Assembly: GCA_016188895.1 (NCBI GenBank)
Contig: JACPGZ010000029.1
Coordinates: forward strand, 1 to 40,066
Source: Candidatus Pacearchaeota archaeon
GTDB lineage: Archaea; Nanobdellota; Nanobdellia; Pacearchaeales; GW2011-AR1
Reading direction: 5' to 3'
DNA: 40,066 nucleotides
The stretch's first letter is position 1; each line of letters begins with the position of its first letter. Positions 19,200 to 37,602 of the stretch are shown here, in pieces. Below the pieces are notes generated by a model. That model made no database searches and was not told where the DNA came from. It saw nothing but the letters and a program-made list of their open reading frames with translations. A program made the position numbers and the translations under genes.

Positions 19200-20118
19200 T
19201 ACCTTTATCAATACAATTACAGAATTAGCTGAAATGGACGAACGTATTGTTTTGTTGACCGCTGATCTTGGCTATAAAATTTTTGACAATTTTGCAAAAA
19301 AATTTCCTAATAGATTTTATAATGTTGGAATTGCTGAAGCCAATATGGTTGGTGTTGCTGCTGGTTTAGCAAGTTTTGGTATGAGACCCTATGTTTATTC
19401 TATTGTTCCATTTGCGACATTAAGATGTTGTGAACAAATAAGAGACGACGTTGCGTATAATAATCTTAATGTTAAAATTGTTGGTGTTGGGGGAGGTTAT
19501 GCCTATGGTTTTAATGGGCCGACTCATCACGGAATTGAAGATATTTCTGTAATGCGATCAATTCCAAATCTTAATGTTCTTTGTCCTGGCGATTCCCTTG
19601 AAACAGAAAATATAATTATATCTTCTTGGCTAGGTCATGCACCAACCTATATAAGATTAGGCCGTGGCGGTGAACCGAAAGTTCATAAGTCTTTATCAAA
19701 AGGTATACTTAAACGTGTTAATGAGAGTGAAGATTTTGAAGATCTTATAATATTTTCTTGTGGGGGCATTTTATCTATTGTTGATTCGGTGAATGCTTTA
19801 TTAAGAAAAAAAGATATAAAATCTACAGTTGTTTCTGTACCTTATGTTAAACCTTTATATGGAAGCTTAATCGCTGACATGTGTCGTCAAACTAAAAATG
19901 TTGTAACTGTTGAAGAACAAACTATTGTTGGCGGGTTTGGTGGTGCAGTTGCTGAATGTTTGATGGAAGATAGAATTTTTGTTGGATTTAAAAGATTTGG
20001 AATAAGAGATATGTTTATTCATACTGCTGGCGATCAAGAATATTTGAGAAATCTTGCAGGGCTTTCTGTTGAGTTATTGTATAAAAATATATTAGAGTTT
20101 TTGAAAAATAATGAATAA
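19192..20118 (+). CDS. transketolase, C-terminal (Pyr + C) subunit, copy 1
   Basis: IVLLTADLGYKIFDNFAKKFPNRFYNVGIAEANMVGVAAGLA...THHGIEDISVMRSIPNL...VEEQTIVGGFGGAV. Confidence 0.9.
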   Translation: MRNTFINTITELAEMDERIVLLTADLGYKIFDNFAKKFPNRFYNVGIAEANMVGVAAGLASFGMRPYVYSIVPFATLRCCEQIRDDVAYNNLNVKIVGVGGGYAYGFNGPTHHGIEDISVMRSIPNLNVLCPGDSLETENIIISSWLGHAPTYIRLGRGGEPKVHKSLSKGILKRVNESEDFEDLIIFSCGGILSIVDSVNALLRKKDIKSTVVSVPYVKPLYGSLIADMCRQTKNVVTVEEQTIVGGFGGAVAECLMEDRIFVGFKRFGIRDMFIHTAGDQEYLRNLAGLSVELLYKNILEFLKNNE

Positions 20119-21631: not shown

Positions 21632-22629
21632 AGAATAAGATATTAGTTACGATTGTTACCAGAAATAATGAGGTGATGCTTCGTCATTTAATTGAATCTA
21701 TTGAGAAAAACGATTCTGGTTATGAATATGATCTTTTATTGTTAGATACTGAAAGTGACGATAAAAAACATTTGTTTGCTTTAGATGAATTTTCAAAAAA
21801 ATATAAAGTACAAACCGTTGTAGATGACAGAGTTGAAGTAACATATAACATTGCATGGAAAGAAAATCAAGATTATCAATACTATTTTTTTATGCATGAT
21901 GATTGTCACGTTGAAAGAAAAGATTGGCTCAAAGTATTTGTTGATCGGATGAATAGCGGATATTATGAACAAATTATAGAGAATACTCACTTTAAAAATC
22001 TTCCAATAGGAAGAGTTTCTATAGGAAATCAATTTTGGCGAGACTATTATTCTGTTAAAGGGCATTCTGTCCAATGTGTGTTTTTAAAATATGCATTAGA
22101 GTTAATTTATCCAGGTAAAGTTCCTGAAATTTTTAAACTGGTAGATTGTGACAGGTTATTGATTAAAGCTGACTGTCTTTTTCAAATAGGTGGATTTAGA
22201 AATATTAAGGAATTTGTTGAATTAAAAAAACAAAATATAGAAATATTTGATAAACTTTGCAATATATTAAATTCTTATTTGCCTTATCCTGACGAAGGAA
22301 TGTATCCCAAAGAAATATACCCTCCGGGAGAATACTGGAATAAAATTACTTTAACTACTGAATATATGGACTCTATTGACCCGCTAATTAAAGGATGGCG
22401 TGGTGTTGGGCTATATGATGATGGCTATCTTGAGCAGATACACGGGTTTGACGTTCCGAGACAACATCGATATATAACACATTATGGTTCTCCTAATTAC
22501 CGAGAGTTTATTGCAAAAAAGTTTAACTCTAATCGAGAAGAAGTTAGAAAATATTTTAAAGACAAAATTTTTTTGATAAAATGCGATAAATTATTTAAAG
22601 AATATTTAGAAAAACATGGAGATATTTAA
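21628..22629 (+). CDS. glycosyltransferase family 2-like
   Basis: Start refined to ATG 21628 (ATGA overlap). KILVTIVTRNNEVMLRHLIESIEKNDSGYEYDLLLLDTESDD...YYFFMHDDCHVERKDWL. Confidence 0.65.
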   Translation: MKNKILVTIVTRNNEVMLRHLIESIEKNDSGYEYDLLLLDTESDDKKHLFALDEFSKKYKVQTVVDDRVEVTYNIAWKENQDYQYYFFMHDDCHVERKDWLKVFVDRMNSGYYEQIIENTHFKNLPIGRVSIGNQFWRDYYSVKGHSVQCVFLKYALELIYPGKVPEIFKLVDCDRLLIKADCLFQIGGFRNIKEFVELKKQNIEIFDKLCNILNSYLPYPDEGMYPKEIYPPGEYWNKITLTTEYMDSIDPLIKGWRGVGLYDDGYLEQIHGFDVPRQHRYITHYGSPNYREFIAKKFNSNREEVRKYFKDKIFLIKCDKLFKEYLEKHGDI

Positions 22630-24214
22630 TAAATATCGTGTTGTTGTTTTAACTGCCGGTCAAGGTTTACGTCTTGGCAACAAAACAAAAAATTTTAATA
22701 AATGTCTTTTGAAAGTAGGCAATAAGGCAGTTATATCATATACTATTGATTCTTTTCCAAAAGAAGTAGAATTTGTTATTGCTTTGGGATATCGGGGTAG
22801 TTTGGTCAAACAATACCTTGAAATAGTATATCCGGAAAGAAAGTTTATTTTTGTTGATGTTGATAAATTCAAAGGTCCAGGTTCAGGTCCAGGATATTCT
22901 CTGCTGTCTTGTCAAAGTTATCTTCAATGTCCTTTTTATTTTGTTTCTTGTGATGCAATTGTTTTTTATTGGCAATATCTTTTGAGGTTACGTCATGGCT
23001 GGTCTGGATATTGTGAAATTGACGAAAACAGGAAAGATGAATATTGTACTATTAAATTTGATGAAGATGATGAAATAATTGAATATTTTAATAAAACAAA
23101 CAATGGAACGAAATGGGCATTTACTGGTGTTGCGTATATAAAGGAATATAAAGAATTTTGGAATAATCTAAAAAAAGAAAATATCTCTATTGAAAATGAA
23201 TTACAGGTTGCTCCTGCTATTTTGAAAATTAGAAGCGCACCTGCTGTTGAAATTGAATGGGTTGATACAGGAAACGAAGAAGGGTTGCAATTAGCAAAAT
23301 TGTGCTATAATAATGGCATTCAAAACTTAGACAAAGAAGATGAAGAAATATATTTTCTTGACGATTATGTTATTAAATATTTTTGTAATGAAAGTATAGT
23401 TAACGAAAGACTTATTCGTACAAAATATCTTAATAATATAGTTCCTCAGATAATTGATTCAAAAAAGAACTTTTACAAATATGAATTTATTAATGGCAAA
23501 GATTTATTTGGAATTAATAATTTAGATGAAATTTTTCTATTGTTTTTAAATACTGTTAAAAGTCATTTTTGGAATTTTTATGATAAAATTGAATTGAATG
23601 AAATACAAAAAATAATTTTTAAAGATGCCTGTAAACATTTTTATTATGACAAAACAATTTCAAGGTTAAATAAACTTTATGAAAAAGTGAATATCATTGA
23701 TCAACAAAATGTTATAAACGGAAAGAATATCCCGCTTATTAAAGATATTTTTGAATTAATAGATTGGGAGTGGTTATGTAGCGGTTTTCCAAGCAGGTTT
23801 CATGGTGACTTAGCTTTAGGAAATATTATACATACAGACAAAAAAGAATTTAAGTTTATTGATTGGAGGCAGGATTTTTCTGGATTGATTGAATATGGAG
23901 ATATTTATTATGATTTTGCAAAACTTTATGCAAGCCTATTATGGTCACGAAATAGTATAAAAGATGATAAATTCTTTATTAAGGAAAAAAATAATAAAAT
24001 TGATGTCAATATTGAAATTAGTGAATCTTTTATAAATTGTTTGAAAATTTTTGACAATTGGTTAATTGAAAATAATTTCTCTCTGAGAAAAACAAAAATA
24101 TTGTCTCATATTGTTTTGCTTAATATGTCTCCTTTGCATGAAAATCCATTAGATAGGCATTTATTTTATTATGCAAAATGGTTATTATACAAAGAACTAG
24201 AAAGAGGTGTTTGA
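22616..24214 (+). CDS. fusion of sugar/choline-phosphate nucleotidyltransferase and APH/choline-kinase-like kinase
   Basis: N-term VVLTAGQGLRLGNKTKNFNKCLLKVGNKAVISYTID; C-term FHGDLALGNIIHTDKKEFKFIDWRQDF (HGDxxxxN ... D). Confidence 0.8.
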   Translation: MEIFNKYRVVVLTAGQGLRLGNKTKNFNKCLLKVGNKAVISYTIDSFPKEVEFVIALGYRGSLVKQYLEIVYPERKFIFVDVDKFKGPGSGPGYSLLSCQSYLQCPFYFVSCDAIVFYWQYLLRLRHGWSGYCEIDENRKDEYCTIKFDEDDEIIEYFNKTNNGTKWAFTGVAYIKEYKEFWNNLKKENISIENELQVAPAILKIRSAPAVEIEWVDTGNEEGLQLAKLCYNNGIQNLDKEDEEIYFLDDYVIKYFCNESIVNERLIRTKYLNNIVPQIIDSKKNFYKYEFINGKDLFGINNLDEIFLLFLNTVKSHFWNFYDKIELNEIQKIIFKDACKHFYYDKTISRLNKLYEKVNIIDQQNVINGKNIPLIKDIFELIDWEWLCSGFPSRFHGDLALGNIIHTDKKEFKFIDWRQDFSGLIEYGDIYYDFAKLYASLLWSRNSIKDDKFFIKEKNNKIDVNIEISESFINCLKIFDNWLIENNFSLRKTKILSHIVLLNMSPLHENPLDRHLFYYAKWLLYKELERGV

Positions 24215-24568
24215 ATGTTTAATGAGCCTTATAAAATTGTTGAAAAAGCATATGGGAAAGAAGTTTGGTTAGTATTAAATGACAAATTTTGCATGAAGCA
24301 TATTTTTATTAATAAGGGACACAGATCAAGTTTACAATATCATAATGTTAAGAGAGAAGCAATGTTTGTATTATCAGGTAAGGCCCGAGTTACATTAGAG
24401 GTGAGTAATAAATTGGAAGAATTTGATTTGGACGTTGGTTCAATACTTGATATCCCGGCTACTGTAAAACATAGAGTTGAAGCACTTGAAGATTTGGTAT
24501 TTATCGAATGTAGCACCCCAGAAGTTGATGATCTTGTCAGAATAGAAGATGATTACAATAGAAAATGA
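24215..24568 (+). CDS. mannose-6-phosphate isomerase-like cupin
   Basis: KHIFINKGHRSSLQYHNVKREAMFVLSGKARVTLE...ILDIPATVKHRVEAL. Confidence 0.75.
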   Translation: MFNEPYKIVEKAYGKEVWLVLNDKFCMKHIFINKGHRSSLQYHNVKREAMFVLSGKARVTLEVSNKLEEFDLDVGSILDIPATVKHRVEALEDLVFIECSTPEVDDLVRIEDDYNRK

Positions 24569-24597: not shown

Positions 24598-25812
24598 ATG
24601 AAACAGGCTGTATCTATACAGAAAATAGGAAAAATAAATGAATGCTTGATGTTTATCAAACAAAATGGAATTTCTGGGTCTATTCTTGAATTTGGTGTTT
24701 ATGAAGGCGGATCATTATTTGAAATTGTAAATTTTTGTAGATTAAATAAAATGACACATTATATATACGGATTTGATTCATTTCAAGGACTTCCTCATAG
24801 TGAAGGAATCTGGAGTGTTGGAGAAGCTTGTTCATCTTATGAAAATACTTGTTCTGAGTTAAAAAATAAACTTGGAACTATTGAAGATATTGTTCTTATT
24901 AAGGGATTTTTTAAGGATTCTTTAACTAAAGAATTACAAAAAATTATTTCAAAAGCAGCATTAATTCATATAGATTCAGATCTTTACATGTCTGCTGTTG
25001 AATCTTTATCTTTTTGCGAGCCCCTATTGCGAGAAAATACATTTGTTATTTTTGATGAATATGTTGCCGATGGCGAAGCTAAAGCGTGGAAAGAATTTTT
25101 AAGTAAAACAGGTTATGAAGCTGAAACTTTTTCTTCTTGCAACGATCAATCAATATTTAAAATTAAAAAATTAGGCACAGATAATAAGAAAAAATTAATA
25201 GAATTGTATAAAAAAGAATCTTTAGAAGCGTTTAACAGTATATCTACTGAAAAAATTATTCAATTTGTTGATATGATATTTGAAGCATATGATAAAGAGA
25301 AGACTATATTTGTTTGCGGAAACGGCGGAAATGTAGCTTCTGCCCTAAATTTGGTAGTAGATCTCAATATGCACCCGTTTACATCGGAAGATAAAAACGT
25401 ACAGAACGTACAAAGAAATAAATTTAAATGTGTTAATCTTTGTTGTGATCAAGCTACATTAACAGGAGTTAGCAATGATTTGGGATTTGAGTTTGTTTTT
25501 TCAGAACAACTGAAATATCAAGGAGATAGCGGAGATATATTATTTGGCATGTCTGGTTCTGGTAATTCTAAAAATATATTATCTGCATTTAAACTTGCAA
25601 AACAAAAGGAGATGAAGATAATACTTGTAACGAGAAATGCTATAAATAAATGTAGTGAGTTTGCTGATTTAACCATAGCTTTGGACGGTATGTCTTTGTT
25701 TCCCGGCCAGACTGGGAATAATAATAATAATTTTCATTACGAAGATATATTGTCAAAGCTTACTCATATTGCTGTTGGGTTATTAAAAAAGAGAGTTCAA
25801 GATGCAAATTGA
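24598..25812 (+). CDS. fusion: TylF-like class I methyltransferase + SIS (GmhA-like sedoheptulose-7-phosphate isomerase) domain
   Basis: N-term ILEFGVYEGGSLFEIVNF...IYGFDSFQGLPHSEGIW...AALIHIDSDLYMSAVESL; C-term (~25185 on) FVCGNGGNVASALNLVVDL...ILFGMSGSGNSKNILSAFKLAKQKEMKIILVTRN. Confidence 0.8.
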   Translation: MKQAVSIQKIGKINECLMFIKQNGISGSILEFGVYEGGSLFEIVNFCRLNKMTHYIYGFDSFQGLPHSEGIWSVGEACSSYENTCSELKNKLGTIEDIVLIKGFFKDSLTKELQKIISKAALIHIDSDLYMSAVESLSFCEPLLRENTFVIFDEYVADGEAKAWKEFLSKTGYEAETFSSCNDQSIFKIKKLGTDNKKKLIELYKKESLEAFNSISTEKIIQFVDMIFEAYDKEKTIFVCGNGGNVASALNLVVDLNMHPFTSEDKNVQNVQRNKFKCVNLCCDQATLTGVSNDLGFEFVFSEQLKYQGDSGDILFGMSGSGNSKNILSAFKLAKQKEMKIILVTRNAINKCSEFADLTIALDGMSLFPGQTGNNNNNFHYEDILSKLTHIAVGLLKKRVQDAN

Positions 25813-26650
25813 TCCAAATATATTGCGAAAAAAAGTTTTAAAAATGGTTTATGATAAAAAATCAGGACATATAGGTGGCTCTTTTTCTATTGCCGAACTT
25901 ATTGCTGTTCTTTATTCTGATTATGATATTGGCGGAAAAGATAAATTGATTTTATCAAAAGGACACGCAGTTCCAATAATTTATGCTGTTTTGCATGAAT
26001 TAAAAAAGATTAGCGACAAAGATTTATCTTTATTTCGTGAGATTAATTCACCGCTGCAAGGTCATCCTGATAAATTACGATTGCCTTTATTGGACGCCAC
26101 CACTGGCTCATTAGGGCAAGGATTGAGTATTGCTATAGGCCACGCTTTAGGTAAATCTTTAAAAAATGAAGACGGAATTGTATTTTGTATTCTTGGCGAT
26201 GGTGAAATTCAAGAGGGCCAAATTTGGGAAGCGTTATCCTATTTTCCAAAAACTGGGTTAAAGAATTTGGTTTGTTTTATCGATTGGAATAAGGGGCAAA
26301 ATGACGGATGCTCAAAAGACTATAGCATTATGTACGATAACCTAAGAGAGAGAATTAGCTGTTTTGGATGGAATTGTAGAATGGTAGATGGTCATAGTAT
26401 GAAAGAAATTAGAACACAATTACATTATCGTACAGTAGAACCTTTGTGCCTAATTTTAGATACAATTAAAGGCAAGGGTGTTTCGTTTATGGAAAATTCT
26501 TCTTGGCATGCTAGAGTTCCAAACGACGAAGAATACAAAAATGCATTAGAAGAATTGGAAGAATTAATTGCACACGGTTATTGTCATGATTGTGATTCTG
26601 CACCGTGCAAAGATATAGAATTTTTTGATAAATTAAATGAAATCAACTAG
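25802..26650 (+). CDS. transketolase, N-terminal (TPP-binding) subunit, copy 2
   Basis: SGHIGGSFSIAELIAVLY, LSKGHAVPIIYAVLHE, TGSLGQGLSIAIGHALG, GDGEIQEGQIWEALSYFPKTGLKNLVCFIDWN. Confidence 0.9.
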   Translation: MQIDPNILRKKVLKMVYDKKSGHIGGSFSIAELIAVLYSDYDIGGKDKLILSKGHAVPIIYAVLHELKKISDKDLSLFREINSPLQGHPDKLRLPLLDATTGSLGQGLSIAIGHALGKSLKNEDGIVFCILGDGEIQEGQIWEALSYFPKTGLKNLVCFIDWNKGQNDGCSKDYSIMYDNLRERISCFGWNCRMVDGHSMKEIRTQLHYRTVEPLCLILDTIKGKGVSFMENSSWHARVPNDEEYKNALEELEELIAHGYCHDCDSAPCKDIEFFDKLNEIN

Positions 26651-27587
26651 AGATGCTATTGGCGATTTTCTTCCTTTAATAGGAGAAAAATATGAGAACA
26701 TTATTGTTCTTGATGCTGATTTAGGAAAAGCAACAAAACTTGCTGAATTTGGCAAAAAATTTCCAGACAGGTTTTTTCAGATTGGCATTGCTGAAGCTAA
26801 TATGATCGGAATTGCTTCTGGTCTTTCAGAGTATGGATATAAGGTATTTTTGGGTTCTTTTGCTTCGTTTCTTTCTGGGAGATATGATATAATTCGATGT
26901 AGTTTAGCATATCCTAATTGTCCAGTTATTTTGGTCGGAACTCATGTTGGATTGGCAATTGGACGTGACGGCGTGACACAGATGGGTCTTGAAGATGTTT
27001 CTATAATGCGTGCTCTTCCAAATATGAAAATTTTGAATCCTGCAACTTATTCTGAAACAATAAAGTGTATTAAATATTTATGTGAAACAACATTGGATTC
27101 TCCACATTATCTTCGTTTAGGTCGTCAACCGATTGAAGATGTTTTATATTCAGAAACTATTTTTGAGTTTGGTAAGGGGGCTGTAGTAATGCACGGTTCA
27201 GGAAAAAGCAATACAATAACTTTATTTTCTACTGGATGTATTCTTTCTGATGTTTTGAATGCAGCAGCATTAATCGAAAATTCAATAAAAGATTATAAAG
27301 TTGAAGTAATTAATTTTCATACACTAAAGCCAATAGATAAAGACTTAATTATTAGTTCAGCAAAAATATCTGAGATTCTTTTTGTGATTGAAGATCATTC
27401 AATTGTTGGTGGTTTAGGTTCGATTATATCTGAAGTTTTAACTGATTTATGTCCTTCCAGATTAGTTAGAATCGGCTTAAATGATATTTTTCCAGAATCA
27501 GGTTTTCCAAATGATTTGTATGAAAAATATGGACTGAGTGCAGAAAAAATAGCTGATAGAGTATTAAAAGAAATTGCAGAATACTAA
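26637..27587 (+). CDS. transketolase, C-terminal (Pyr + C) subunit, copy 2
   Basis: IIVLDADLGKATKLAEFGKKFPDRFFQIGIAEANMIGIASGLS...TQMGLEDVSIMRALPNM...IEDHSIVGGLGSI. Confidence 0.9.
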   Translation: MKSTRDAIGDFLPLIGEKYENIIVLDADLGKATKLAEFGKKFPDRFFQIGIAEANMIGIASGLSEYGYKVFLGSFASFLSGRYDIIRCSLAYPNCPVILVGTHVGLAIGRDGVTQMGLEDVSIMRALPNMKILNPATYSETIKCIKYLCETTLDSPHYLRLGRQPIEDVLYSETIFEFGKGAVVMHGSGKSNTITLFSTGCILSDVLNAAALIENSIKDYKVEVINFHTLKPIDKDLIISSAKISEILFVIEDHSIVGGLGSIISEVLTDLCPSRLVRIGLNDIFPESGFPNDLYEKYGLSAEKIADRVLKEIAEY

Positions 27588-27605
27588 ATGAATTAGGACA
27601 AATTT

Positions 27606-28607
27606 ATGAGCAATTTTATTGTGTTTGGATCGTTGGGTTTTATAGGATCTAATTTATCAGAAAGATTACTTGAAGACGGGCATAATGTTTTTGGTGTTGA
27701 CAATATATCGACAGGTACAAATGAAAATTTAGACATGCTTGAAAAGCATGATAGGTTTAATTTTCTAAAATTAGATATTACAGATAAGAGCGATCTAGAC
27801 TATCTTTCTCGTTATTTGACCGCTAACAATGATAGAATCGATTGTGTGTTTATGCTTTCAGGGGTAGCACGTATTCAACCTGCTATTTTGAATCCTCAGT
27901 TGACACATGATACAAATGTTACAGGAATGTTTAATGTTCTTGAATTTATGAGAAAAAGCAATATAACAAATATTGTATTTTCTTCTTCTTCAAGCATCTA
28001 TGGTCTTGCAAATAAATGCCCGCTGAAAGAGGATATGCCGCCTGATTGTTTAAACGTATATTCGCTTTCAAAATATGTTAGTGAACAATATATAAAAACT
28101 TGGTGTAAGTTATACGGAATGAATGGTGTATGTCTCCGTTATTTTAACGTGTTCGGACAACGTGAAGTGTTAGCTGGAGGTGATTTTGCACCTGTTGTTG
28201 GATTATTTTTTAGGCAATTATTATTGGAAAAGAAACCATTAACAATTGTAGGTGATGGATTGCAACGACGGGCACACACACACGTTTTTGATGTTGTTGA
28301 TGCCAACTTGAAGGCGGCAGAACAATGTATGAAGGGAATTAGAAATAGATTTCATGGTGAAGTTTTTAATATTGGAACAGAAAAAAATTATTCAATGATT
28401 GAATTGGCAGATATTATTTTGGATTCTTTGGGTATGAATCGAGAAAGAAATAAGATTTTTATTTCACAGCGGGTAGCAGAATTAAGAGAAACATCGGCAG
28501 ATATTAGCAAAGCAAAAAAGATTTTGGGCTGGGAACCAAAGATTTCGTTGGAAGAATATATCGATAAACATAGAGATTATTATTACAAAAGATGGGGGCG
28601 TTGTTAG
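27606..28607 (+). CDS. NAD-dependent epimerase/dehydratase (extended SDR)
   Basis: FIVFGSLGFIGSNLSERLLEDGHNVFGVDNISTGTNENL...VFSSSSSIYG...YSLSKYVSEQYI. Confidence 0.9.
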   Translation: MSNFIVFGSLGFIGSNLSERLLEDGHNVFGVDNISTGTNENLDMLEKHDRFNFLKLDITDKSDLDYLSRYLTANNDRIDCVFMLSGVARIQPAILNPQLTHDTNVTGMFNVLEFMRKSNITNIVFSSSSSIYGLANKCPLKEDMPPDCLNVYSLSKYVSEQYIKTWCKLYGMNGVCLRYFNVFGQREVLAGGDFAPVVGLFFRQLLLEKKPLTIVGDGLQRRAHTHVFDVVDANLKAAEQCMKGIRNRFHGEVFNIGTEKNYSMIELADIILDSLGMNRERNKIFISQRVAELRETSADISKAKKILGWEPKISLEEYIDKHRDYYYKRWGRC

Positions 28608-29423
28608 TTGAAGGTTTTTGCAAATTTGACTTCATATAACGAAGAATATTTTATTAATGAAGTCGTAGCTTCCATTCATGATTTTGTTGATTATATTTGT
28701 ATTATTGATGTTGGAATGGAAAATATTGTTTCTCGTGGAGCGTCACTTCATTCAAATGATAAAAGCGTTGAAATTGTTAAGGCTTGGCAAAATAAAAGTA
28801 AAAAAATTCATTTGATCCAACCAAAAGATCCACCAAAGACGTTTCCTGAACTTGGAATGTATGGATTGAACCTGGCAAAAGAGTTGAAATGTGATTGGTT
28901 TTTTTCTGTTGGTCTAGATGAGATCTATGATAAAAATTGTATAATTCCAATGAGAAATATATTGGCAAATTGTGAAAGAAATGGAATTATGGGAATCAAT
29001 TTGAGCATGTATGGTTTTTGCCCTGATTTTTATCATTATTATGATTTTTATAATCCAAGAATTGGAAGAATTACAGACGATTGTACGATGCCTTTTTCTT
29101 CTTGTGATATATTGTATTGGCCAAAGTTAAAGGCATGGCAATCAATTGAATTAGATAGAGTTCCAGAGTATATTAGGAAAATTAACTTTGATTATCCAAA
29201 ATTTTTGAAAGTTTTTCACTATACATGTGTCGGAAAAGAACGAATTAAATTTAAATATGAATTTTATAAAACATACAAAGACAATATTGGCGCTGAACAC
29301 TACGAACACTATATGAATAAAGATTGGGACTATTTTAAAAATGTTATGAAATGCAAGGAGTTCACCGGAAAACATCCAGAAATTATGCAAAAACATCCGT
29401 TATTTAACGAGAAATTATATTGA
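28608..29423 (+). CDS. glycosyltransferase family 2-like
   Basis: TTG start directly after the upstream stop. VFANLTSYNEEYFINEVVASIHDFVDYICIIDVG...CDWFFSVGLDEIYDKN; C-term GKHPEIMQKHP shared with 32795..33598. Confidence 0.65.
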   Translation: MKVFANLTSYNEEYFINEVVASIHDFVDYICIIDVGMENIVSRGASLHSNDKSVEIVKAWQNKSKKIHLIQPKDPPKTFPELGMYGLNLAKELKCDWFFSVGLDEIYDKNCIIPMRNILANCERNGIMGINLSMYGFCPDFYHYYDFYNPRIGRITDDCTMPFSSCDILYWPKLKAWQSIELDRVPEYIRKINFDYPKFLKVFHYTCVGKERIKFKYEFYKTYKDNIGAEHYEHYMNKDWDYFKNVMKCKEFTGKHPEIMQKHPLFNEKLY

Positions 29424-30343
29424 AAATTGTAATGCATTGCAACTATGTTTATCCTGCGAAAAATTCAGCCGGAAGTGAACGTGTCGCTGAGGCATTAGTT
29501 AAAGGTTTTGTTAAGCTTGGTCATGAAATTGTGATGCATATTGACCCAAATTCAATTGGTGTGCCTGTGCCGATTGTAACAAAAATTCCGCAAGATTTTG
29601 ACATAGTTCATTGTCAAGGTGAAGATTTTTCTGATTGTGAAATACCTTTTATTAGCACTGTACATGGCGGTGGAAGCGACCCACCTGACGCTCACTGGAA
29701 ACACGATCCTCACTTTGTTTGTGTAAGTGATTTTATTTGCAAATTAGTAGGTAAAAAACAATTTGTTCATTCTTGTGTTGAACCCGATGATTTTATTTAT
29801 AAAAATAGAAAAGAAGATTATTTTCTTTGGATTTCGGGGACCGACTGGGGTGAAGGTAAATCTTTATTTACAACAATTTTACTTGCAAAAAAAATGGGAT
29901 TCAAATTAAAACTTGCGGGTACGGGAAAAAATCAACAAATTATTGATGAAATAAAAAAATATTGCAATTCTAAAATAGAATACCTTGGAGCGGTTAATGG
30001 AAAAGAAAAAGCAGAATTGATTGCTTCTGCAAAGGCAGTTATTTTGTACACAAGGTTACCTGATGCATGTCCGTTGGTTGTTGCAGAATCATTAATTTCT
30101 GGGACGCCAATTATTGGCTCAATAAATGGCTCTCTTCCGGAATTAATTGTTCACAATCAAACTGGAATTTTATGCAAAAACGAAAATGAACTACCACGGG
30201 CAGTTGCAAGTGTTTCAAAAATAAAACCTGAAGAATGCAGACAATATGCATTGAAACATTTTTCAAATATTGTTGCATGTGAAAAATATTTGAAATTATA
30301 TAAAAACGTGATAGAATTTGGAAATGTTAACGGGAAAGAGTAA
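29420..30343 (+). CDS. glycosyltransferase, GT4-like
   Basis: MHCNYVYPAKNSAGSERVAEALVKGFVKLGHEIVMH...ILYTRLPDACPLVVAESLISGTPIIGSINGSLPELI. Confidence 0.85.
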   Translation: MKIVMHCNYVYPAKNSAGSERVAEALVKGFVKLGHEIVMHIDPNSIGVPVPIVTKIPQDFDIVHCQGEDFSDCEIPFISTVHGGGSDPPDAHWKHDPHFVCVSDFICKLVGKKQFVHSCVEPDDFIYKNRKEDYFLWISGTDWGEGKSLFTTILLAKKMGFKLKLAGTGKNQQIIDEIKKYCNSKIEYLGAVNGKEKAELIASAKAVILYTRLPDACPLVVAESLISGTPIIGSINGSLPELIVHNQTGILCKNENELPRAVASVSKIKPEECRQYALKHFSNIVACEKYLKLYKNVIEFGNVNGKE

Positions 30344-31158
30344 TGGCTCATATATACAGAACAACCATTTGGCTTGATGGTCCCGCTAAAGAACATTTTA
30401 AAACTGGATTATGTTATATAGAAACTGAAGAAAAAGAACCGCATAATATTCTTATTGATCGTGTTTCTAAGCAATATATTGAAGATCGTTTTTATAATAT
30501 AACCTGTTCAAATATTAATTTTGTTAATAATCTTGGTTTAAGTAAAGATATGTTGTTAAATGGTATGAAAGAAAATAAAAATGATAGCTCTATGACCTCA
30601 ATTGAACGTAATTTTTTATTTAATTTTGTTAAAAAAATTATGCCACGAAAGGTCATGGAATTTTCTCCATTTCGTGGATTTTCAACCGCAGTAATTGCTT
30701 CTTCATTAAAGGAAATCAATATTTGCCCAGATTTTTTTGAAACCCATGAAGTTGATAAAGAAAACGTTAAATTGACAAATTTTTATTTACATGAAAATAA
30801 TATTGATTTTGTAAAAGTAGTTGAAGGAGATGTATTGCAAACCATAGATAAAGAAAAACTTAAAGAAACAGATTTTTTACTAATTGATTCTGATCATTCT
30901 GATGAATTTGCAAAAAATTATATTAAGCAATTTTTTCCACTGTTAAAAAACGGATGTTGGGTTGCTATTCATGATATATCTCACGATAAACATTTTTGTT
31001 CGGGCGAAGCTAGAGAATTGTTAACTTATTTTAAAGAAAATAATATTTTTACTTATTTTCATGTTGCTGATTTGATGAAAATATTTCAGGTTGTGGGTGA
31101 TGATTTTATATATTCAAACGCAAGAAATACTTTGTTATTTTGGCAGGTAAGCAAATAA
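30343..31158 (+). CDS. class I SAM-dependent methyltransferase-like
   Basis: VMEFSPFRGFSTAVIASSLK...EVDKENVKLTNFYLHENNIDFVKVVEGD...DFLLIDSDHSDEFAKNYI. Confidence 0.7.
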   Translation: MAHIYRTTIWLDGPAKEHFKTGLCYIETEEKEPHNILIDRVSKQYIEDRFYNITCSNINFVNNLGLSKDMLLNGMKENKNDSSMTSIERNFLFNFVKKIMPRKVMEFSPFRGFSTAVIASSLKEINICPDFFETHEVDKENVKLTNFYLHENNIDFVKVVEGDVLQTIDKEKLKETDFLLIDSDHSDEFAKNYIKQFFPLLKNGCWVAIHDISHDKHFCSGEARELLTYFKENNIFTYFHVADLMKIFQVVGDDFIYSNARNTLLFWQVSK

Positions 31159-31653
31159 ATGTTTAGAGATGATCTTATTTTTATTTTAGATGTAGATGGA
31201 ATTTTATCTCCTAATTTTTTCTATAACAAGAAAGGAAAATATTTGAAAGAATTTGGAAATTGTGACTGGGATGCATTAAGGGAATTAATGCAATTTATAA
31301 AAATTATTTTTATAACAGCAGATAGAAAGGGATATAATATCGTCAAGAAAAGGATTGTTGATGAAATGAAATGGGAATTATTTATTGTTCCGCATAAGCC
31401 AAAAGAACGATGGCAATGGATGCGGGAAAAATATAAAGATAAGAAAATAATATTTATGGGAGACGGAATTTATGATTATTATTCTTTGGATAGATCACAC
31501 TATAGCATAACTGTTCCTGAAGCATTAGATCATGTTAAAGAGTGTATAAATTATGTAACTAAAAGATCAGCAGGAAGAAAAGCGGTTGCTGAAGCCTGTA
31601 TGCATTTGATGAAAGTTTTTAATTTTGATTGGGAAAGTCAATATGAAACATAA
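31159..31653 (+). CDS. HAD phosphatase, KdsC-like
   Basis: IFILDVDGILSPNFFYNKKG...KIIFITADRKGYNIV...IIFMGDGIYDYYSL...RSAGRKAVAEACMHLM. Confidence 0.75.
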   Translation: MFRDDLIFILDVDGILSPNFFYNKKGKYLKEFGNCDWDALRELMQFIKIIFITADRKGYNIVKKRIVDEMKWELFIVPHKPKERWQWMREKYKDKKIIFMGDGIYDYYSLDRSHYSITVPEALDHVKECINYVTKRSAGRKAVAEACMHLMKVFNFDWESQYET

Positions 31654-31846
31654 AAATATTGATAAATTTCCAAAACCGATAGAAATAGACGGGGAACGTA
31701 TTCAGGTTTCTGATGAACAAGAACAAGCTGGACCAGGCATAGTATTTGTGCGTGTTGGAGAAAGAATGAATTTGTCTCCTTTTGAAGCAGAAGAACTTCG
31801 AGATTGGCTGACAAAGTATCTTGTGGCCTATTATTCCAATGATTAA
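31643..31846 (+). CDS. hypothetical protein, 67 aa
   Basis: ATG at 31643 in an overlapping-gene arrangement; MKHKNIDKFPKPIEIDGERIQVSDEQ. Confidence 0.5.
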   Translation: MKHKNIDKFPKPIEIDGERIQVSDEQEQAGPGIVFVRVGERMNLSPFEAEELRDWLTKYLVAYYSND

Positions 31847-32624
31847 TAATCAAACGAAAATATTTTTTTCCATATCATCAAATCCAGGTAATTTTGGTGC
31901 TTATCTTTATAATAAAGCTTTTCAGGAATTAAACATTGATGCAATATATAAACCGCTAAAATTGGATTCAAAATATCAATTAACGGATTTTATAAATCTT
32001 CTTTCAGTGTTTAAAATAATTGGAACATCGGGGTTGTCTGTATCGATGCCGTTTAAAAGGTATGCATATTTGGCCATAAGATCTGAAGATGCCGCCACAG
32101 AAGAAATAGGCAACGCAAATACAATAGTTTTTGATGAACATACCTCTTATTGTTATAATGTTGACCATATTGGGTTTGAAAAATCATGTTATGATAGATT
32201 ATACCAGCAAGATATATTGGATGAATCGAAAAGTGCTATAATCTTTGGAAAAGGGTCTGTTGCAAACAGTATTGCATATGTTTTGAAGAGCAGAAATATT
32301 GATTTTTTTATGACAAAAGACCCAGAAAATCTTATAAATAGAGGGATTGATTTTCTTATTAACGCAACGCCTGTTGGAATGGATCATATTCAGGATGATG
32401 TTTTTAATAAAAAGATTGTAAAAGATTATAAATTTGTATTTGATGTTGTTGTAAAAAAGGAAACAAATCTAATAAAGCTTGCAAGAGAGCTAAATAAAAC
32501 TTATGTTTGTGGTTGGCAGATGGCTAGCAAACAATTGACAGAACAATTTAAAATTTACACAAAGAAGGAATATCCAGAAGATTTAATGAATATTGGCTTG
32601 AAAGAATTAGGTTATGGATATTAA
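31839..32624 (+). CDS. shikimate dehydrogenase (AroE)-like oxidoreductase
   Basis: Start refined to ATG 31839. GLSVSMPFKRYA (catalytic K), IGNANTIVF...YCYNVDHIGFE (NxD), IFGKGSVANSIAYVL, DFLINATPVGM. Confidence 0.75.
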   Translation: MINNQTKIFFSISSNPGNFGAYLYNKAFQELNIDAIYKPLKLDSKYQLTDFINLLSVFKIIGTSGLSVSMPFKRYAYLAIRSEDAATEEIGNANTIVFDEHTSYCYNVDHIGFEKSCYDRLYQQDILDESKSAIIFGKGSVANSIAYVLKSRNIDFFMTKDPENLINRGIDFLINATPVGMDHIQDDVFNKKIVKDYKFVFDVVVKKETNLIKLARELNKTYVCGWQMASKQLTEQFKIYTKKEYPEDLMNIGLKELGYGY

Positions 32625-32826
32625 AGAATATTGGGTCTCTTCGATTAAAAAGGATCGTGGAACGTCGACAATGACATTTTGGGTCAAAACAGAAGATGAT
32701 ATTATTGTTGACGTTGCGCCGATTGGAAAGAAATTTATTGGACAAAAATTTGATGCATTAAGAAATTGGATGGAAAAACAAGGAGATTTTTTGTGTGAAA
32801 CTCTCAGTTCTGATGACGGTCTATGA
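32614..32826 (+). CDS. hypothetical protein, 70 aa
   Basis: Overlaps both neighbours, same strand. Confidence 0.5.
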   Translation: MDIKEYWVSSIKKDRGTSTMTFWVKTEDDIIVDVAPIGKKFIGQKFDALRNWMEKQGDFLCETLSSDDGL

Positions 32827-33598
32827 AGAACAAAGTTTTATTGATTATGCAATAAGATCTTGTCTTCCGTATGTTGATGATTTAGTTATAGTAGAAGGAA
32901 GTTATCAGGAGGTACTTGCTCTTGGCGCAACGCCACGATCACACGACGGAACAATACAGATTATAGAGAATTATCGTTCTAATCCAAAAGTTGATATTCT
33001 TTATGTTAATGCTCAGACAGATAAGGATCAGCGCAATCTTGGTTTGCAAAGAATTAAGGAATTAAATCCCGACGATTGGTGTATTATCGTCGACAGTGAT
33101 GAAATTTATGACAAAAATACATTTTCTATCATAAAAAATTTATGTCAAAAAATGGAAAAACAAAATCAGTATGCTGCATATTTTTCAAGTTTAACATTTG
33201 TCAACGACATGAAGCACTATACAATGCAGGAATTTCCAAGATTATTTAAAATCACAAAAGATTGTCAATTTGTGAATGACAACTATATGATTTGGCCAGA
33301 TAAAGACATTATGCAATGGGCCAGTCCTTGGGTAATAAAACAGCCAAATATAAAATATTGGCATTATGCCTTTTGCAAAGGAACAGAAAAGTTTTTGCAA
33401 AAGAAGAATTGGTGGAATAGCCGATTTAAGGAAACAAATCCAAACTTTGAATACGATTGGTATGTTGATAAAGACGGCAAATTTTATAGTCCAAATCATA
33501 AAATATTTCTTTACGACGGTAAACATCCAGATATAATGCAAAAGCATCCGTTATATAAACAAACTTATGGAGGAAACGCTAATGGCGACGAAAAATGA
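32795..33598 (+). CDS. glycosyltransferase family 2-like
   Basis: KLSVLMTVYEEQSFIDYAIRSCLPYVDDLVIVEG...DDWCIIVDSDEIYDKNTF; C-term GKHPDIMQKHPL. Confidence 0.75.
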   Translation: MKLSVLMTVYEEQSFIDYAIRSCLPYVDDLVIVEGSYQEVLALGATPRSHDGTIQIIENYRSNPKVDILYVNAQTDKDQRNLGLQRIKELNPDDWCIIVDSDEIYDKNTFSIIKNLCQKMEKQNQYAAYFSSLTFVNDMKHYTMQEFPRLFKITKDCQFVNDNYMIWPDKDIMQWASPWVIKQPNIKYWHYAFCKGTEKFLQKKNWWNSRFKETNPNFEYDWYVDKDGKFYSPNHKIFLYDGKHPDIMQKHPLYKQTYGGNANGDEK

Positions 33599-33827
33599 AT
33601 TGGAAGTAGAAGTGACCACACTGAAAAAAGGGCTTGGAAAACTTGAAAGCGATCTTCATTCTTCAGCGAGAAAAGTTAACAATGATGTCAACGTTCTTTC
33701 TTCTCTCCTCGCACAGACAAGAGAAGATCTTGATAAGACAAGGAATGAGGTTGAAAGATTGAAGAATTTTGTTGATTCAATAAAAAGTCAAATGGCAAAT
33801 TATGATGTAAAAACAAGTTCTTGGTAA
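33582..33827 (+). CDS. small predicted coiled-coil protein
   Basis: MATKNELEVEVTTLKKGLGKLESDLHSSARKVNNDVNVLSSLLAQTREDLDKTRNEVERLKNFVDSIKSQ; heptad-like pattern; GGAGG SD. Confidence 0.65.
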   Translation: MATKNELEVEVTTLKKGLGKLESDLHSSARKVNNDVNVLSSLLAQTREDLDKTRNEVERLKNFVDSIKSQMANYDVKTSSW

Positions 33828-33833
33828 TTTAAT

Positions 33834-34685
33834 GTGGAAAAAGTCGGGATAATTGGGACAGGAATTGTAGGGTCTGCTGTATCTGTCGGTCTTGGAAATA
33901 TTGCAGAAATTAGAGAACATGATAAATATCGTGATTCTGAATCTTTAGAATCTGTTGTTAATAATTCAAATATAGTTTTTATCTGCACCCCAACTCCAAT
34001 GGATAAAAACACTGGAGCTTGTGATGTATCTATTGTTGAATCTGTTTGCAAAGAAGCTGTTAGTGTAACAAAAAAACATAAAACTTTTGTTATAAAAAGT
34101 TCTGTTATTCCGGGAACGACACAAAAGTTGCAGGAAAAATATAGAGGGCATACCTTTATTTTTAACCCTGAGTTCTTGACCGAAAAACAATTTATTCAAG
34201 ATTTTTTGGAACAAGATCGTATAATTCTTGGTTGTGATAAAAAAGAAATATATGGATTAGAAAAATTATATATTGAATTTACAAAAACTCAAAAAAGTCC
34301 TGCAAAGATCATAAAAACGGATTCGAAAATTGCAGAAATAGTTAAGTATGTAGGTAATTGTTTTCTTGCCACGAAAGTTATGTTTTTTAACGAAATATAT
34401 GAAATTTGTAAAGCTTCGAATGTTGATTACGATCAGGTAAAAGATTTAGTTTCTATGGATAAGAGGATTAAAGATTCTCATATGAATGTTCCTGGTCATG
34501 ATGGTCAATTTGGTTTTGGTGGAAAATGTTTTCCTGCCAATATCAATGCTTTAATATATTACGCAAGGGAGCTAGGTTGTGATCCATTAATTCTTGATTC
34601 TATCTGGAGTAAAAATTGTATTGTTCGAGAAAACTATGATTGGGAAAACATTCCCGCCGTGACAGGAGAGTATAAAAATGAATAA
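33834..34685 (+). CDS. UDP-glucose/GDP-mannose dehydrogenase-like, short form
   Basis: VGIIGTGIVGSAVSVGL, VFICTPTPMDKNTGACD, FNPEFLTEKQFIQDFLEQDRIILG, EIVKYVGNCFLATKVMFFNEIYEIC, GFGGKCFPANI (catalytic Cys). Confidence 0.85.
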   Translation: MEKVGIIGTGIVGSAVSVGLGNIAEIREHDKYRDSESLESVVNNSNIVFICTPTPMDKNTGACDVSIVESVCKEAVSVTKKHKTFVIKSSVIPGTTQKLQEKYRGHTFIFNPEFLTEKQFIQDFLEQDRIILGCDKKEIYGLEKLYIEFTKTQKSPAKIIKTDSKIAEIVKYVGNCFLATKVMFFNEIYEICKASNVDYDQVKDLVSMDKRIKDSHMNVPGHDGQFGFGGKCFPANINALIYYARELGCDPLILDSIWSKNCIVRENYDWENIPAVTGEYKNE

Positions 34686-35133
34686 AATAATGTTTGGAAT
34701 TATTTTTCTTTTGTCGTGCAGTAATATTGTTTCCAGTTTTATGTATACAGAAAGTGGCACTGTACTTATACGACATCTTAGGGGTCCATCATTACAAGAA
34801 ATGAAAAGTGTAGTAGAGTTGGCCATTAATTCTGGCTTATGTAATGCAAATGAATTAGAAGATATTATTGTAGACGTATTACCTGTTGAAGAATTATACG
34901 GAAGATCCAATATTTTTGAAAAAGCTGTCGGTCAATTCAATACCGAAACAAAAACCGTGACAATAGCTGGACTATCTAATTTTCCATGTCGAACAATATT
35001 GCATGAATTGGTTCATGCTTGCCGAAGCCGAAGAGGAATCAATGAACCAGATCACGATGATTTGACTGTTTGGACCCCCAGAAAAAAATTATTGCCAAAA
35101 TATGACAAACAGGTTTCTGGGATTTGCCCGTGA
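34678..35133 (+). CDS. putative secreted HExxH metallopeptidase-like protein
   Basis: Hydrophobic N-terminus MNKIMFGIIFLLSCSNIVSSF (signal or lipoprotein-like); TILHELVHACRSRRG. Confidence 0.55.
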   Translation: MNKIMFGIIFLLSCSNIVSSFMYTESGTVLIRHLRGPSLQEMKSVVELAINSGLCNANELEDIIVDVLPVEELYGRSNIFEKAVGQFNTETKTVTIAGLSNFPCRTILHELVHACRSRRGINEPDHDDLTVWTPRKKLLPKYDKQVSGICP

Positions 35134-35603
35134 TAAAACATAAGCCATCAATTCCCAATGAAAAATATATTTTGTTCGCAAACGGCGGATTTGATTGTTT
35201 GCATGCAGGTCATTTTGATTTTCTTTTGTATTGTCTTCATTTGAAAAAACAATTTAATGCATGTCTCGTTGTTGCGATAGATTCCGACGAAAAAATAAAA
35301 GAAAAAGGAAAAGATAGACCAATATTTTCTGAACAGGAAAGAAGAGAATGTCTTTTAAAACTAAATTTTGGAAAAGAATCGATAATTGATTCATGTCCTA
35401 TTTTTGATACAAATGAAGATCTTGATGAATTAATTAAACAATGTAAGCCAAACATATTGATAAAGGGGGAAAGTTGGAAAGGAAACGTTGTTGGAGAGAA
35501 ATACGTAAAAACTATTTTCTTTTATTCAGAAAATAAAATAAATATTTCAACAACAAAAATTATTGAAAGAATAGCAGATAAATTATTGAGCGAGATGTTT
35601 TAA
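35130..35603 (+). CDS. HldE C-terminal/HldC-like heptose-1-phosphate nucleotidyltransferase
   Basis: Start refined to GTG 35130. FANGGFDCLHAGHFDFL (HxGH), VVAIDSDEKIKEKGKDRPIFSEQERRECLL, ILIKGESW, NISTTKIIERI. Confidence 0.8.
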   Translation: MIKHKPSIPNEKYILFANGGFDCLHAGHFDFLLYCLHLKKQFNACLVVAIDSDEKIKEKGKDRPIFSEQERRECLLKLNFGKESIIDSCPIFDTNEDLDELIKQCKPNILIKGESWKGNVVGEKYVKTIFFYSENKINISTTKIIERIADKLLSEMF

Positions 35604-35606
35604 TTT

Positions 35607-36473
35607 ATGAAATTTCTTATCTTGGGTGATCCTGTCCTTGATCGATTTGTCTACGGAATTGTTCATCGTCAATCTCCAGAAGATCAAAGCATTCCTGTTA
35701 TCGATTTCGTCGCAGAAGACTATCAGTTGGGTGGAGCGTTAAAAACAGCAGAATGTATAAGATTTTTTTCTGATAAATTGAAAGATGAAGTGTATGTTTC
35801 TTCTATAATTTCAAATTTTACGGCAAATATGCTGAAACAGAAAAATATATTTTATGATTCTATTATCTTTGAGGAACAGAATAAACCACATGTGAGAGAA
35901 TTAATAAAAGAAAGAATAATGCATTCAGAGACACATAAGCAATTTTTGAGGTTAGACAATAGACTTTGTTTTGACAGTGGCGACATTCAAAGATACAAAA
36001 ATAAATGCTATTATTATAATGCAAAAGAATTTGATGCGGTCATAATTTCTGATTATGAAAAAGGATTGGTGGATAATTTTCTTATTGAGAAACTGAAAGA
36101 AGTGCAGTGTCCATTTTTTGTTGACACAAAAAAAGAAAATCTTTCATTATGGTCAGATTTGAAGAATTGTTTTGTCAAAATTAATCGAAAGGAATTTGAA
36201 AAAGCAAAGAATTCAGATTTAATTGAAAATCTTATTGTTACGAGAGGAAGAGAGTCAACATTATTGATCAGTTATGGAGAGATATTAAAAGAATTTACGA
36301 TAGATAATGAAAACTGTATTGATCCTTATGTAATTGGAGCAGGAGATATTTGGCTTTCTGCGTTTGTTGTTTTTTATATGAAAAATAAAAATTTGCATGA
36401 ATCGATAATGTACGCAAATAAAACCGCAACAGAATGTGTTAAAAAAGGAAAGTTGGTAAAAATTGAGAATTAA
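35607..36473 (+). CDS. PfkB-family kinase, HldE N-terminal/HldA-like
   Basis: FLILGDPVLDRFVYGIVHRQSPEDQSIPVIDFVAEDYQLGGALKTAECI; DPYVIGAGDIWLSAFVVF. Confidence 0.85.
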   Translation: MKFLILGDPVLDRFVYGIVHRQSPEDQSIPVIDFVAEDYQLGGALKTAECIRFFSDKLKDEVYVSSIISNFTANMLKQKNIFYDSIIFEEQNKPHVRELIKERIMHSETHKQFLRLDNRLCFDSGDIQRYKNKCYYYNAKEFDAVIISDYEKGLVDNFLIEKLKEVQCPFFVDTKKENLSLWSDLKNCFVKINRKEFEKAKNSDLIENLIVTRGRESTLLISYGEILKEFTIDNENCIDPYVIGAGDIWLSAFVVFYMKNKNLHESIMYANKTATECVKKGKLVKIEN

Positions 36474-36474
36474 T

Positions 36475-36891
36475 ATGAATAAGACAGAAAAAACAAAATG
36501 GGTAGGAAAATCATGGGGCGGTGAGCTTATTATAACAAATAGACCACAATATTGTGGAAAGATTTTATATTGTATGAAAGGATTAAGGGCCAGTGTTCAT
36601 TATCATAATGTTAAAAATGAAACATTTTGGCTTTCAAAGGGGCTTGTAAAAATATATTATACAGATGATCTAAAGAAGCTTATGGAAATTTTAAAAGACG
36701 AAAATGTGTTGACGGAAATGAAAAAAGATCCTGGATATTTTATGGATTATGTCATTCTTGATCAGGGTGCTGTTTTTTACGTTCCTCCAAAAAGAGTGCA
36801 TTGTGTTGAGGCTTTAGAAAACAGTGAATTGGTGGAAATAAGTACACAATTTTTCGAGGAAGATAGCATTCGTTTGTTAAAGTTCACATAA
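36475..36891 (+). CDS. cupin, mannose-6-phosphate isomerase-like
   Basis: ILYCMKGLRASVHYHNVKNETFWLSKGLVKIYY...VFYVPPKRVHCVEAL. Confidence 0.7.
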   Translation: MNKTEKTKWVGKSWGGELIITNRPQYCGKILYCMKGLRASVHYHNVKNETFWLSKGLVKIYYTDDLKKLMEILKDENVLTEMKKDPGYFMDYVILDQGAVFYVPPKRVHCVEALENSELVEISTQFFEEDSIRLLKFT

Positions 36892-36909: not shown

Positions 36910-37602
36910 ATGGCACAACCAAAAAGAGTTGAGCTTGTTCCTGTTGATAAAAATAGAATAGAGTTTACATGCAAAGAAAGCGATGCATTGCTTTGTCCTG
37001 ATATTGTAGATCCTCTATATAAACTTTCTGATGATGTCAAAAAAAACAATGGGGTTTTGAAAGCAAAATCATTTTTTAGAACATGGACAAAACAACAGAG
37101 CCTCGTTGATCTTCATGCGAAGGATCCTGTTCGCTATGCATATGCGGCTCCGGCAGGTAGTTCTTTTCATCAAGCCGGCAGAGCAATAGATTTTGATATA
37201 AACGGTTTAAATTTTCAAGGGATTGTAAAAAATGATTGGCTCAAGAAATTTTGGGAATTGGCTATTCCTCTCGGTTTTAAACCAATAATTAAAGAACCCG
37301 ATACAAATATCAGTGAAAATTGGCATTTCGAATATAGAGGATTATGGCAAGGCGTTTCTGAAAAAATTGGAGTAAAAGAAGCGGTTAAGTGTGCAATTTT
37401 GGATATAGGAAATTGGGATCCAAATGAAGGTATTGATAAAATAAATAATATGTTTCTTCAGGCGCAGTTATTGCGCCTTGGTTATTATGAAATAAAAAAA
37501 GCCGATGGAATTATTGGAAATGTGACAAAAAGTGTGTTAAAATCAGTTAATATCTCGGGTTTAAATGTGGAGCAAATATTGATGGTTTTGAAGCAATTAT
37601 AA
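36910..37602 (+). CDS. endolysin: M15 (VanY/D-Ala-D-Ala carboxypeptidase-like) peptidase + probable C-terminal peptidoglycan-binding domain
   Basis: SSFHQAGRAIDFDING (SxHxxGxAxDxD) and NWHFEYRG (WHxE); C-term FLQAQLLRLGYYEIKKADGIIGNVTKSVLK. Confidence 0.8.
   Translation: MAQPKRVELVPVDKNRIEFTCKESDALLCPDIVDPLYKLSDDVKKNNGVLKAKSFFRTWTKQQSLVDLHAKDPVRYAYAAPAGSSFHQAGRAIDFDINGLNFQGIVKNDWLKKFWELAIPLGFKPIIKEPDTNISENWHFEYRGLWQGVSEKIGVKEAVKCAILDIGNWDPNEGIDKINNMFLQAQLLRLGYYEIKKADGIIGNVTKSVLKSVNISGLNVEQILMVLKQL

Follow-up and report, generated by a model that had tools for sequence, protein, structure and literature searches.

A diverged phage cassette for a predicted activated heptose, with a cupin proposed in the place of GmhA, on a contig binned with an archaeon

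Could a short run of genes on contig JACPGZ010000029.1, assigned to a Candidatus Pacearchaeota archaeon (assembly GCA_016188895.1), provide an activated heptose, and which of its proteins would then act as the isomerase? The window, i.e., the whole stretch of DNA analysed, coincides with the full length (40,066 bases) of contig C48 in a genome bin of 0.97 Mb, and it is probably a fragment of a tailed bacteriophage. The cassette in question spans positions 35124-36891 and consists of three genes, with 3 bp between the first and the second and an overlap of 11 bp between the second and the third:

35124 to 35603, + strand: predicted HldE-C/HldC-type nucleotidyltransferase (sugar-1-phosphate to nucleoside diphosphate (NDP)-sugar); CTP_transf_like 41.6 bits, TIGR02199, phrog_7878 E 1.8e-25
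35607 to 36473, + strand: HldE-N/HldA-type PfkB kinase, predicted heptose-7-phosphate 1-kinase; TIGR02198, HldA 4e84, Foldseek, tree
36463 to 36891, + strand: small cupin, proposed sugar-phosphate aldose-ketose isomerase in the place of GmhA; phrog_7851 E 2.2e-27, AlphaFold, Foldseek, PDB profile

In our judgement there is about an even chance that this cassette represents a diverged version of a gene set for an activated heptose, common among phages, in which the cupin replaces GmhA. An earlier note, made from the sequence alone, had proposed a phage-encoded heptose route here with a SIS domain as the isomerase. All the domains that it named exist where it placed them, and chance is excluded as the explanation; its choice of isomerase was not upheld, the cassette's own candidate, the cupin, having been overlooked.

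The kinase had been described as resembling the N-terminal domain of HldE, and its analysis bears this out. With NCBIfam profiles it scored 95.7 bits for TIGR02198 (rfaE_dom_I), other sugar-kinase families giving about 22 bits, while the PfkB match reached 36.3 bits (cut-off 25.8) and the GAGD catalytic motif was located at residues 244-247. Its closest PDB sequence match was HldA (4e84), and when its AlphaFold model (predicted local distance difference test, pLDDT, 90.8) was submitted to Foldseek the seven best matches were Burkholderia cenocepacia HldA chains (best E 6.8e-22, about 1e-21), followed by ribokinase (1.6e-14). The window kinase was also aligned with sequences from bacteria (54) and phages (48), and these were contrasted with RbsK, PfkB, FruK and PsuK. 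The residues R31, K106, R108, R118, D120, the motif SDYxKG and K179 (E. coli HldE numbering) were near-invariant in the bacterial and phage sequences and absent from the four contrasted kinases. The window kinase keeps them as R21, K101, R103, R115, D117, S148-D149-Y150, K152, G153 and K175, and, judging from the alignment, they probably include the sugar-phosphate pocket. In the tree it was placed inside the HldE clade, apart from the ribokinase-type kinases (branch support 99), and not in a non-heptose clade; within it, it grouped with the phage kinases (support 99/96.6). Profile scores, tree, residues and Foldseek thus rule out a kinase of the ribokinase or 1-phosphofructokinase type, and they support an HldA-type kinase with predicted activity on heptose-7-phosphate.

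The nucleotidyltransferase was likewise recognized correctly in the earlier note as HldE-C-like. Its best profile was TIGR02199 (rfaE_dom_II, 77.3 bits versus 31.5 bits for the TagD type), the HxGH motif is present as HAGH, and the C-terminal STTKIIERI corresponds to STTxIIxxI. Directly upstream, at 34678-35133, there is a small predicted secreted protein with an HELVH motif and no Pfam or PHROG match.

With respect to the cupin, 17 residues were invariant across 50 sequences, including the metal tetrad H46/H48/E53/H113 (HxH...E...H). The top Foldseek match of its AlphaFold model (pLDDT 93.4) was the D-lyxose isomerase 7nzp in complex with fructose (probability 1.00), and phosphomannose isomerases were within the best 30 matches. 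When the cupin-family profile was compared with the PDB, the best single-domain match was the D-lyxose isomerase 2y0o (i-Evalue 5.8e-7), which has in common with the family the stretch NxDxYCxK...HxH...KxETF. D-lyxose/D-mannose isomerases turn manno- or lyxo-configured aldoses into ketoses. Since the nearest solved relatives catalyse the same kind of aldose-ketose step, we propose that the cupin fills the slot of GmhA; the proposal is unproven, the reaction is predicted from sequence and model, and the likeness in fold is support rather than proof. The D-lyxose/D-mannose isomerases of B. subtilis (2y0o) and Thermofilum (7nzp) and the cupin phosphomannose isomerase 7zvy have the same fold and metal tetrad, whereas the window cupin is shorter, about 20% identical to them, and an isomerase by prediction. 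A second cupin is found elsewhere in the window, directly upstream of the gene that encodes the SIS domain:

24215 to 24568, + strand: second cupin, paralogue of 36463-36891, with a metal His changed to Gln (H46Q); MannoseP_isomer 28.4 bits (cut-off 23.6), alignments

Gene linkage in phages pointed to the same protein. Searches of phage contigs with the single window kinase or with the fusion protein carrying the SIS domain found no relatives, whereas the kinase alignment did find them. The kinase-bearing IMG/VR set thus obtained comprised the best 80 of at least 569 contigs, and a second set, of SIS-bearing contigs, comprised 80 of 329. Near the kinase, in those best 80, we found the nucleotidyltransferase in 77, the cupin in 75, an HldD-like epimerase in 63 and a HAD protein of the T4-GC306 type in 37, while SIS/GmhA was found in none. 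Dereplication, with at least 2 kb required on each side, left 46 kinase-type and 38 SIS-type contigs. The cupin was present in 43/46 of the former, with SIS/GmhA in 0/46, and in 0/38 of the latter, all 38 of which have the SIS domain by selection (Fisher p 9e-21 for the cupin, the true figure being less extreme given the relatedness of the contigs). Because the first set was chosen by its kinase and the second by its SIS domain, these cupin counts are not an artefact of selection. In addition, six complete cyanophage genomes all had the cupin, and a GmhA search was negative in the six; Caulobacter phage Cr30, the named example of the SIS-type class, has GmhA and lacks the cupin. In that class the SIS GmhA adjoins a different kinase, not found by the PfkB-type profile, which by its sequence motif resembles GHMP kinases (HddA-type). 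Among 18 HldE-bearing genomes, on the other hand, every one had a GmhA-profile match (17 at E < 1e-19) and a single one had a distant cupin match.

The simplest reading of this pattern is that the cupin occupies the slot of GmhA. We further suggest, tentatively and with somewhat less than even confidence, that this phage class makes NDP-heptose through conversion of sedoheptulose-7-phosphate to manno-heptose-7-phosphate by the cupin, that two mutually exclusive cassettes exist, one pairing the PfkB kinase with the cupin and the other a GHMP-like kinase with SIS GmhA, and that the window branched off early within the cupin class.

Three further proteins of the window bear on the route envisaged:

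31159 to 31653, + strand: KdsC-like HAD phosphatase, possible C7 phosphatase (putative role of GmhB); TIGR01670 53.6 bits, PDB matches KdsC
27606 to 28607, + strand: NDP-sugar epimerase/dehydratase of the short-chain dehydrogenase/reductase (SDR) type; phrog_540 261 bits, GalE 157 bits, heptose_epim 101 bits, E. coli HldD by phmmer 45.6 bits
5495 to 7780, + strand: GT4-GT9 fusion glycosyltransferase; Glyco_transf_9 38.8 bits (cut-off 22) at residues 636-721

The cupin would convert sedoheptulose-7-phosphate to heptose-7-phosphate in place of GmhA, the HldA-type kinase would phosphorylate it at C1, the KdsC-type HAD would remove the C7 phosphate as GmhB does, and the HldC-type nucleotidyltransferase would make NDP-heptose from the resulting sugar-1-phosphate. 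Glycosyltransferases encoded in the island, possibly including the GT9 half of 5495-7780, might transfer the sugar and so remodel glycans of the host surface or of the virion. From the computed families, folds, clade, conserved residues and gene linkage we infer the substrate, the cupin reaction, the role of the HAD, the nucleotide used, the heptose product and its final use. The HAD has the catalytic motifs DVDG, T, K and GDGxxD. It is KdsC-like, as the earlier note had said, and matches KdsC/YrbI and not GmhB, and such a HAD was found near the kinase in 0/80 relatives. The GT9 domain, also foreseen, has a PDB match to the GT9 protein 3tov (E 1.3e-6), and its GD and DxxxMH motifs match those of WaaC/WaaF in an alignment. 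The SDR at 27606-28607 is the one in the window nearest to HldD, yet it matches GalE better.

Several points weigh against a heptose route with the cupin as its isomerase. The four equivalog-type matches all stay under their curated NCBI cut-offs (345, 181.5, 209 and 107 bits) and so are distant members: the kinase, with 95.7 bits, is below the 345 bits of TIGR02198 (the P-SSM2 kinase scores 148 bits) and the nucleotidyltransferase, with 77.3 bits, below the 181.5 bits of TIGR02199. The kinase branch is long, at 2.95 changes per column, and a grouping with bacteria instead survives an approximately unbiased (AU) test (p 0.16). The kinase lacks G236, and the Asn of PfkB motif 1 (E. coli HldE N55), kept in 53/54 bacterial and 48/48 phage sequences, is replaced by Lys 46. 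The cupin fold is generic, with quercetinases, CapF and KdgF close behind in the Foldseek list, and hosts may provide GmhA while the cupin does something else. Neither a clear HldD nor a GC306/GmhB HAD was found within the window, which holds only GalE-like SDRs and covers just part of a phage genome, and GT9 is rare near this cassette, being found in only a few relatives. The enzyme assignments of these proteins are predictions.

Some of these features would also be expected if the cassette made another activated sugar, such as a modified hexose or a deoxy or branched sugar, with descendants of HldA and HldC whose substrate has changed and a cupin serving as isomerase or epimerase for it. We consider this rather unlikely. 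The scores below curated cut-offs and the lost motif Asn would fit it, as would two traits of the phage kinases: they lack a segment of about 30 residues, which the window kinase keeps, and in them, the window kinase included, DPKG has become D(S/T)KK. A 2021 report (PMC7824862) also reads the cyanophage clusters as sugar or secondary-metabolite systems and does not name heptose. The HldE-only residues are, however, almost always retained, probably with the sugar-phosphate pocket among them, and the associated epimerase, in P-SSM2, has ADP-heptose 6-epimerase as its best profile (209.9 bits), both of which speak for the heptose reading.

The SIS domain chosen in the earlier note lies some distance from the cassette, next to one of two split transketolase pairs:

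24598 to 25812, + strand: TylF-type methyltransferase fused to a SIS domain; TylF 62.7 bits, SIS_2 48 bits
25802 to 26650, + strand: split transketolase pair 2, N-terminal (thiamine diphosphate (ThDP)-binding) subunit; Transketolase_N 101.7 bits
26637 to 27587, + strand: split transketolase pair 2, C-terminal subunit; Transket_pyr 118 bits, Transketolase_C 73.5 bits
18252 to 19199, + strand: split transketolase pair 1, N-terminal subunit; Transketolase_N 91 bits
19192 to 20118, + strand: split transketolase pair 1, C-terminal subunit; Transket_pyr 114 bits, Transketolase_C 63 bits

The domain itself, named in the note, is present at residues 207-404 of the fusion (SIS_2 E 1.6e-12; gmhA profile 92 bits); the methyltransferase half in front of it had gone unmentioned there. 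Its active site departs from that of E. coli GmhA at four positions (S55N, H61N, E65D and Q172E), with H180 kept, while S55, H61, Q172 and H180 are conserved in all 19 GmhA-like sequences compared (E. coli GmhA and 18 others). A canonical GmhA was rejected as the simplest reading on account of these four changes, and we kept it as an alternative given that the GmhA of Cr30 shares E65D and Q172E; possibly, to judge by its residues, the domain is an altered isomerase. The chain of reactions originally envisaged, with the fusion as a working GmhA, pair 2 feeding it sedoheptulose-7-phosphate and the cupin in another step (e.g., NDP-sugar epimerisation), appears improbable to us. It is favoured by GmhA being the best SIS-family match, by the pair shared with Cr30, and by the overlap of the open reading frames (ORFs) 24598-25812, 25802-26650 and 26637-27587 as one operon. 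A smaller transketolase-like pair also lies about 750 bases upstream of the nucleotidyltransferase in the marine phage-like contigs L086, L096, L097 and L104. Against this, S55N and H61N occur in no other GmhA-like sequence compared, 10 kb separate the SIS domain from the kinase, and the pairing of the two is not seen in phages with this kinase type, SIS being linked to it in 0/100 contigs.

Both transketolase pairs are full split transketolases with domains far over the cut-offs, in agreement with the earlier note. Its further claim of a branch of the phage's own from the pentose-phosphate pool is not supported, because the transketolases may act on other substrates and sedoheptulose-7-phosphate is a normal host metabolite. 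The transketolases could supply this compound, as we infer, or their two-carbon transfer may serve a branched sugar. A ThDP enzyme near the cassette recurs in few cases: besides the four marine contigs, an E1-like ThDP enzyme precedes the kinase in P-TIM68. Most of the transketolase matches in the phage collection, in records labelled as Listeria, Acinetobacter and faecal phage, are likely bacterial contamination and were not used. In the same operon there is a shikimate-dehydrogenase-like ORF (31821-32624) which, with the split transketolases, resembles by analogy parts of amino-shikimate-type gene sets; this may serve as a lead.

Phage cassettes of this composition are not new, and the idea of phage-encoded heptose synthesis, on which the earlier note builds, was already known, such genes being recorded in P-SSM2, S-CAM1 and pelagimyophages. 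The lipopolysaccharide clusters of T4-like cyanophages comprise a nucleotidyltransferase (GC304), a kinase (GC305), a small HAD (GC306), a cupin (GC307) and an HldD-like epimerase (GC308), and PMC7824862 describes these clusters with PfkB kinases, cupin sugar isomerases, HIGH-type nucleotidyltransferases, HAD phosphatases and epimerases. In P-SSM2, S-CAM1, S-SSM7, S-T4 and P-TIM68, as in the window, the nucleotidyltransferase adjoins the HldA-type kinase and the cupin is near, in the window directly after the kinase. Identity to these phages is about 30% for the kinase and 29-42% for the nucleotidyltransferase, and no other copy is as diverged as that of the window. The latter also differs in keeping the kinase segment, in that neither GC306 nor a clear GC308 was found on this part of a phage genome, and in an island that adds the TylF-SIS fusion and two transketolase pairs. 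With the bacterial adenosine diphosphate (ADP)-heptose pathway (GmhA, HldE, GmhB, HldD) it has in common the kinase and nucleotidyltransferase domains and the HldE-only kinase residues, but in the window each domain is a protein of its own, the nucleotidyltransferase being encoded first, and a cupin and a KdsC-type HAD are proposed for GmhA and GmhB. The Cr30 cassette (phosphoheptose isomerase and D,D-heptose 7-phosphate kinase) likewise consists of phage-encoded heptose-type genes, although there a SIS GmhA accompanies a GHMP-like kinase, and the cupin and the PfkB-type kinase were found in 0/80 contigs (of 329) of that type. The pelagimyophages (SAR11 phages; PMC7029224) resemble the window in being AT-rich and in combining rfaE, uridine diphosphate (UDP)-glucose 6-dehydrogenase and many glycosyltransferases, but no cupin or transketolase link is described there. 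Heptose genes including a phosphoheptose isomerase were reported in cyanophage SynMITS9220M01 (PMC7378029).

Our literature search found no paper linking a cupin with phosphoheptose isomerase or D-lyxose isomerase with heptose, and no prior statement of the cupin-for-GmhA prediction or of the two-class pattern was found. The finding is genuine and of a familiar sort: it adds a new, diverged example to a phage cassette already known, and its interest is the isomerase question. Phages of marine and fresh waters commonly carry heptose pathway genes, yet no product of these is known to have been demonstrated. If the proposal is true, one small protein explains the absence of GmhA from these phages as a non-homologous replacement, and the annotation of numerous cyanophages in public databases would be corrected for the cupin, labelled cysteine dioxygenase or nucleotidyltransferase, and for the small HAD, labelled phosphoheptose isomerase. 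The GC306 proteins so labelled in GenBank match the HAD capsule phosphatase family TIGR01689 and begin with DxDGT, and the misannotation has probably entered papers:

GC306 HADs labelled phosphoheptose isomerase: L002:18719-19063; L003:12710-13033; L004:13655-13990; L006:14272-14610

In regard to the origin of the contig, nearly all its genes lie on one strand in tight operons, and it encodes phage-type exonuclease and endonucleases (PHROG matches) as well as an endolysin:

36910 to 37602, + strand: endolysin, VanY peptidase and peptidoglycan-binding domain; VanY 37.5 bits, PG_binding_1 20.1 bits, phrog_2649

These genes and the grouping of the kinase with phage kinases agree with the phage origin assumed in the earlier note. 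The 16S ribosomal RNA of the bin is archaeal (SSU_rRNA_archaea, 1281 bits), whereas the endolysin is of bacterial type and the tetranucleotide profile of the contig is the most deviant among the bin contigs sampled (0.25 versus 0.10-0.19). The contig therefore probably represents one piece of a tailed bacteriophage with a large surface-glycan island, misbinned with the archaeon. Neither a capsid nor a terminase gene was found on its 40,066 bases, and the phage lineage is therefore not established. An alternative in which the contig is a glycan island native to the archaeon would agree with the binning and with the presence of HldE in some related genomes; given the endolysin, the phage-type nucleases, the tetranucleotide deviation and the position of the kinase in the tree, we consider it very improbable, and an archaeal chromosome was judged unlikely on the endolysin, the deviation and the archaeal 16S of the bin. 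Phage-like cassettes were also seen within bins titled Planctomycetaceae, Euryarchaeota, Thaumarchaeota and Cytophagaceae (L096, L097, L104, L093, L094 and L141), and phage contigs appear to have been misbinned repeatedly.

Elsewhere in the island there are two B12-binding radical SAM enzymes (12054-13490 and 20111-21631) and, at 22616-24214, a MobA-like nucleoside triphosphate (NTP) transferase fused to an APH-type kinase, which recalls LicC and LicA of phosphocholine decoration. Three ORFs (4447-5244, 8750-9421 and 10556-11326) have different N-terminal parts and a near-identical C-terminal segment, EIKGYFRKDAxEKWxWFHxxxPNSELWDKKxLKExxIL; they are nuclease-like and may be homing endonucleases inside the glycan island.

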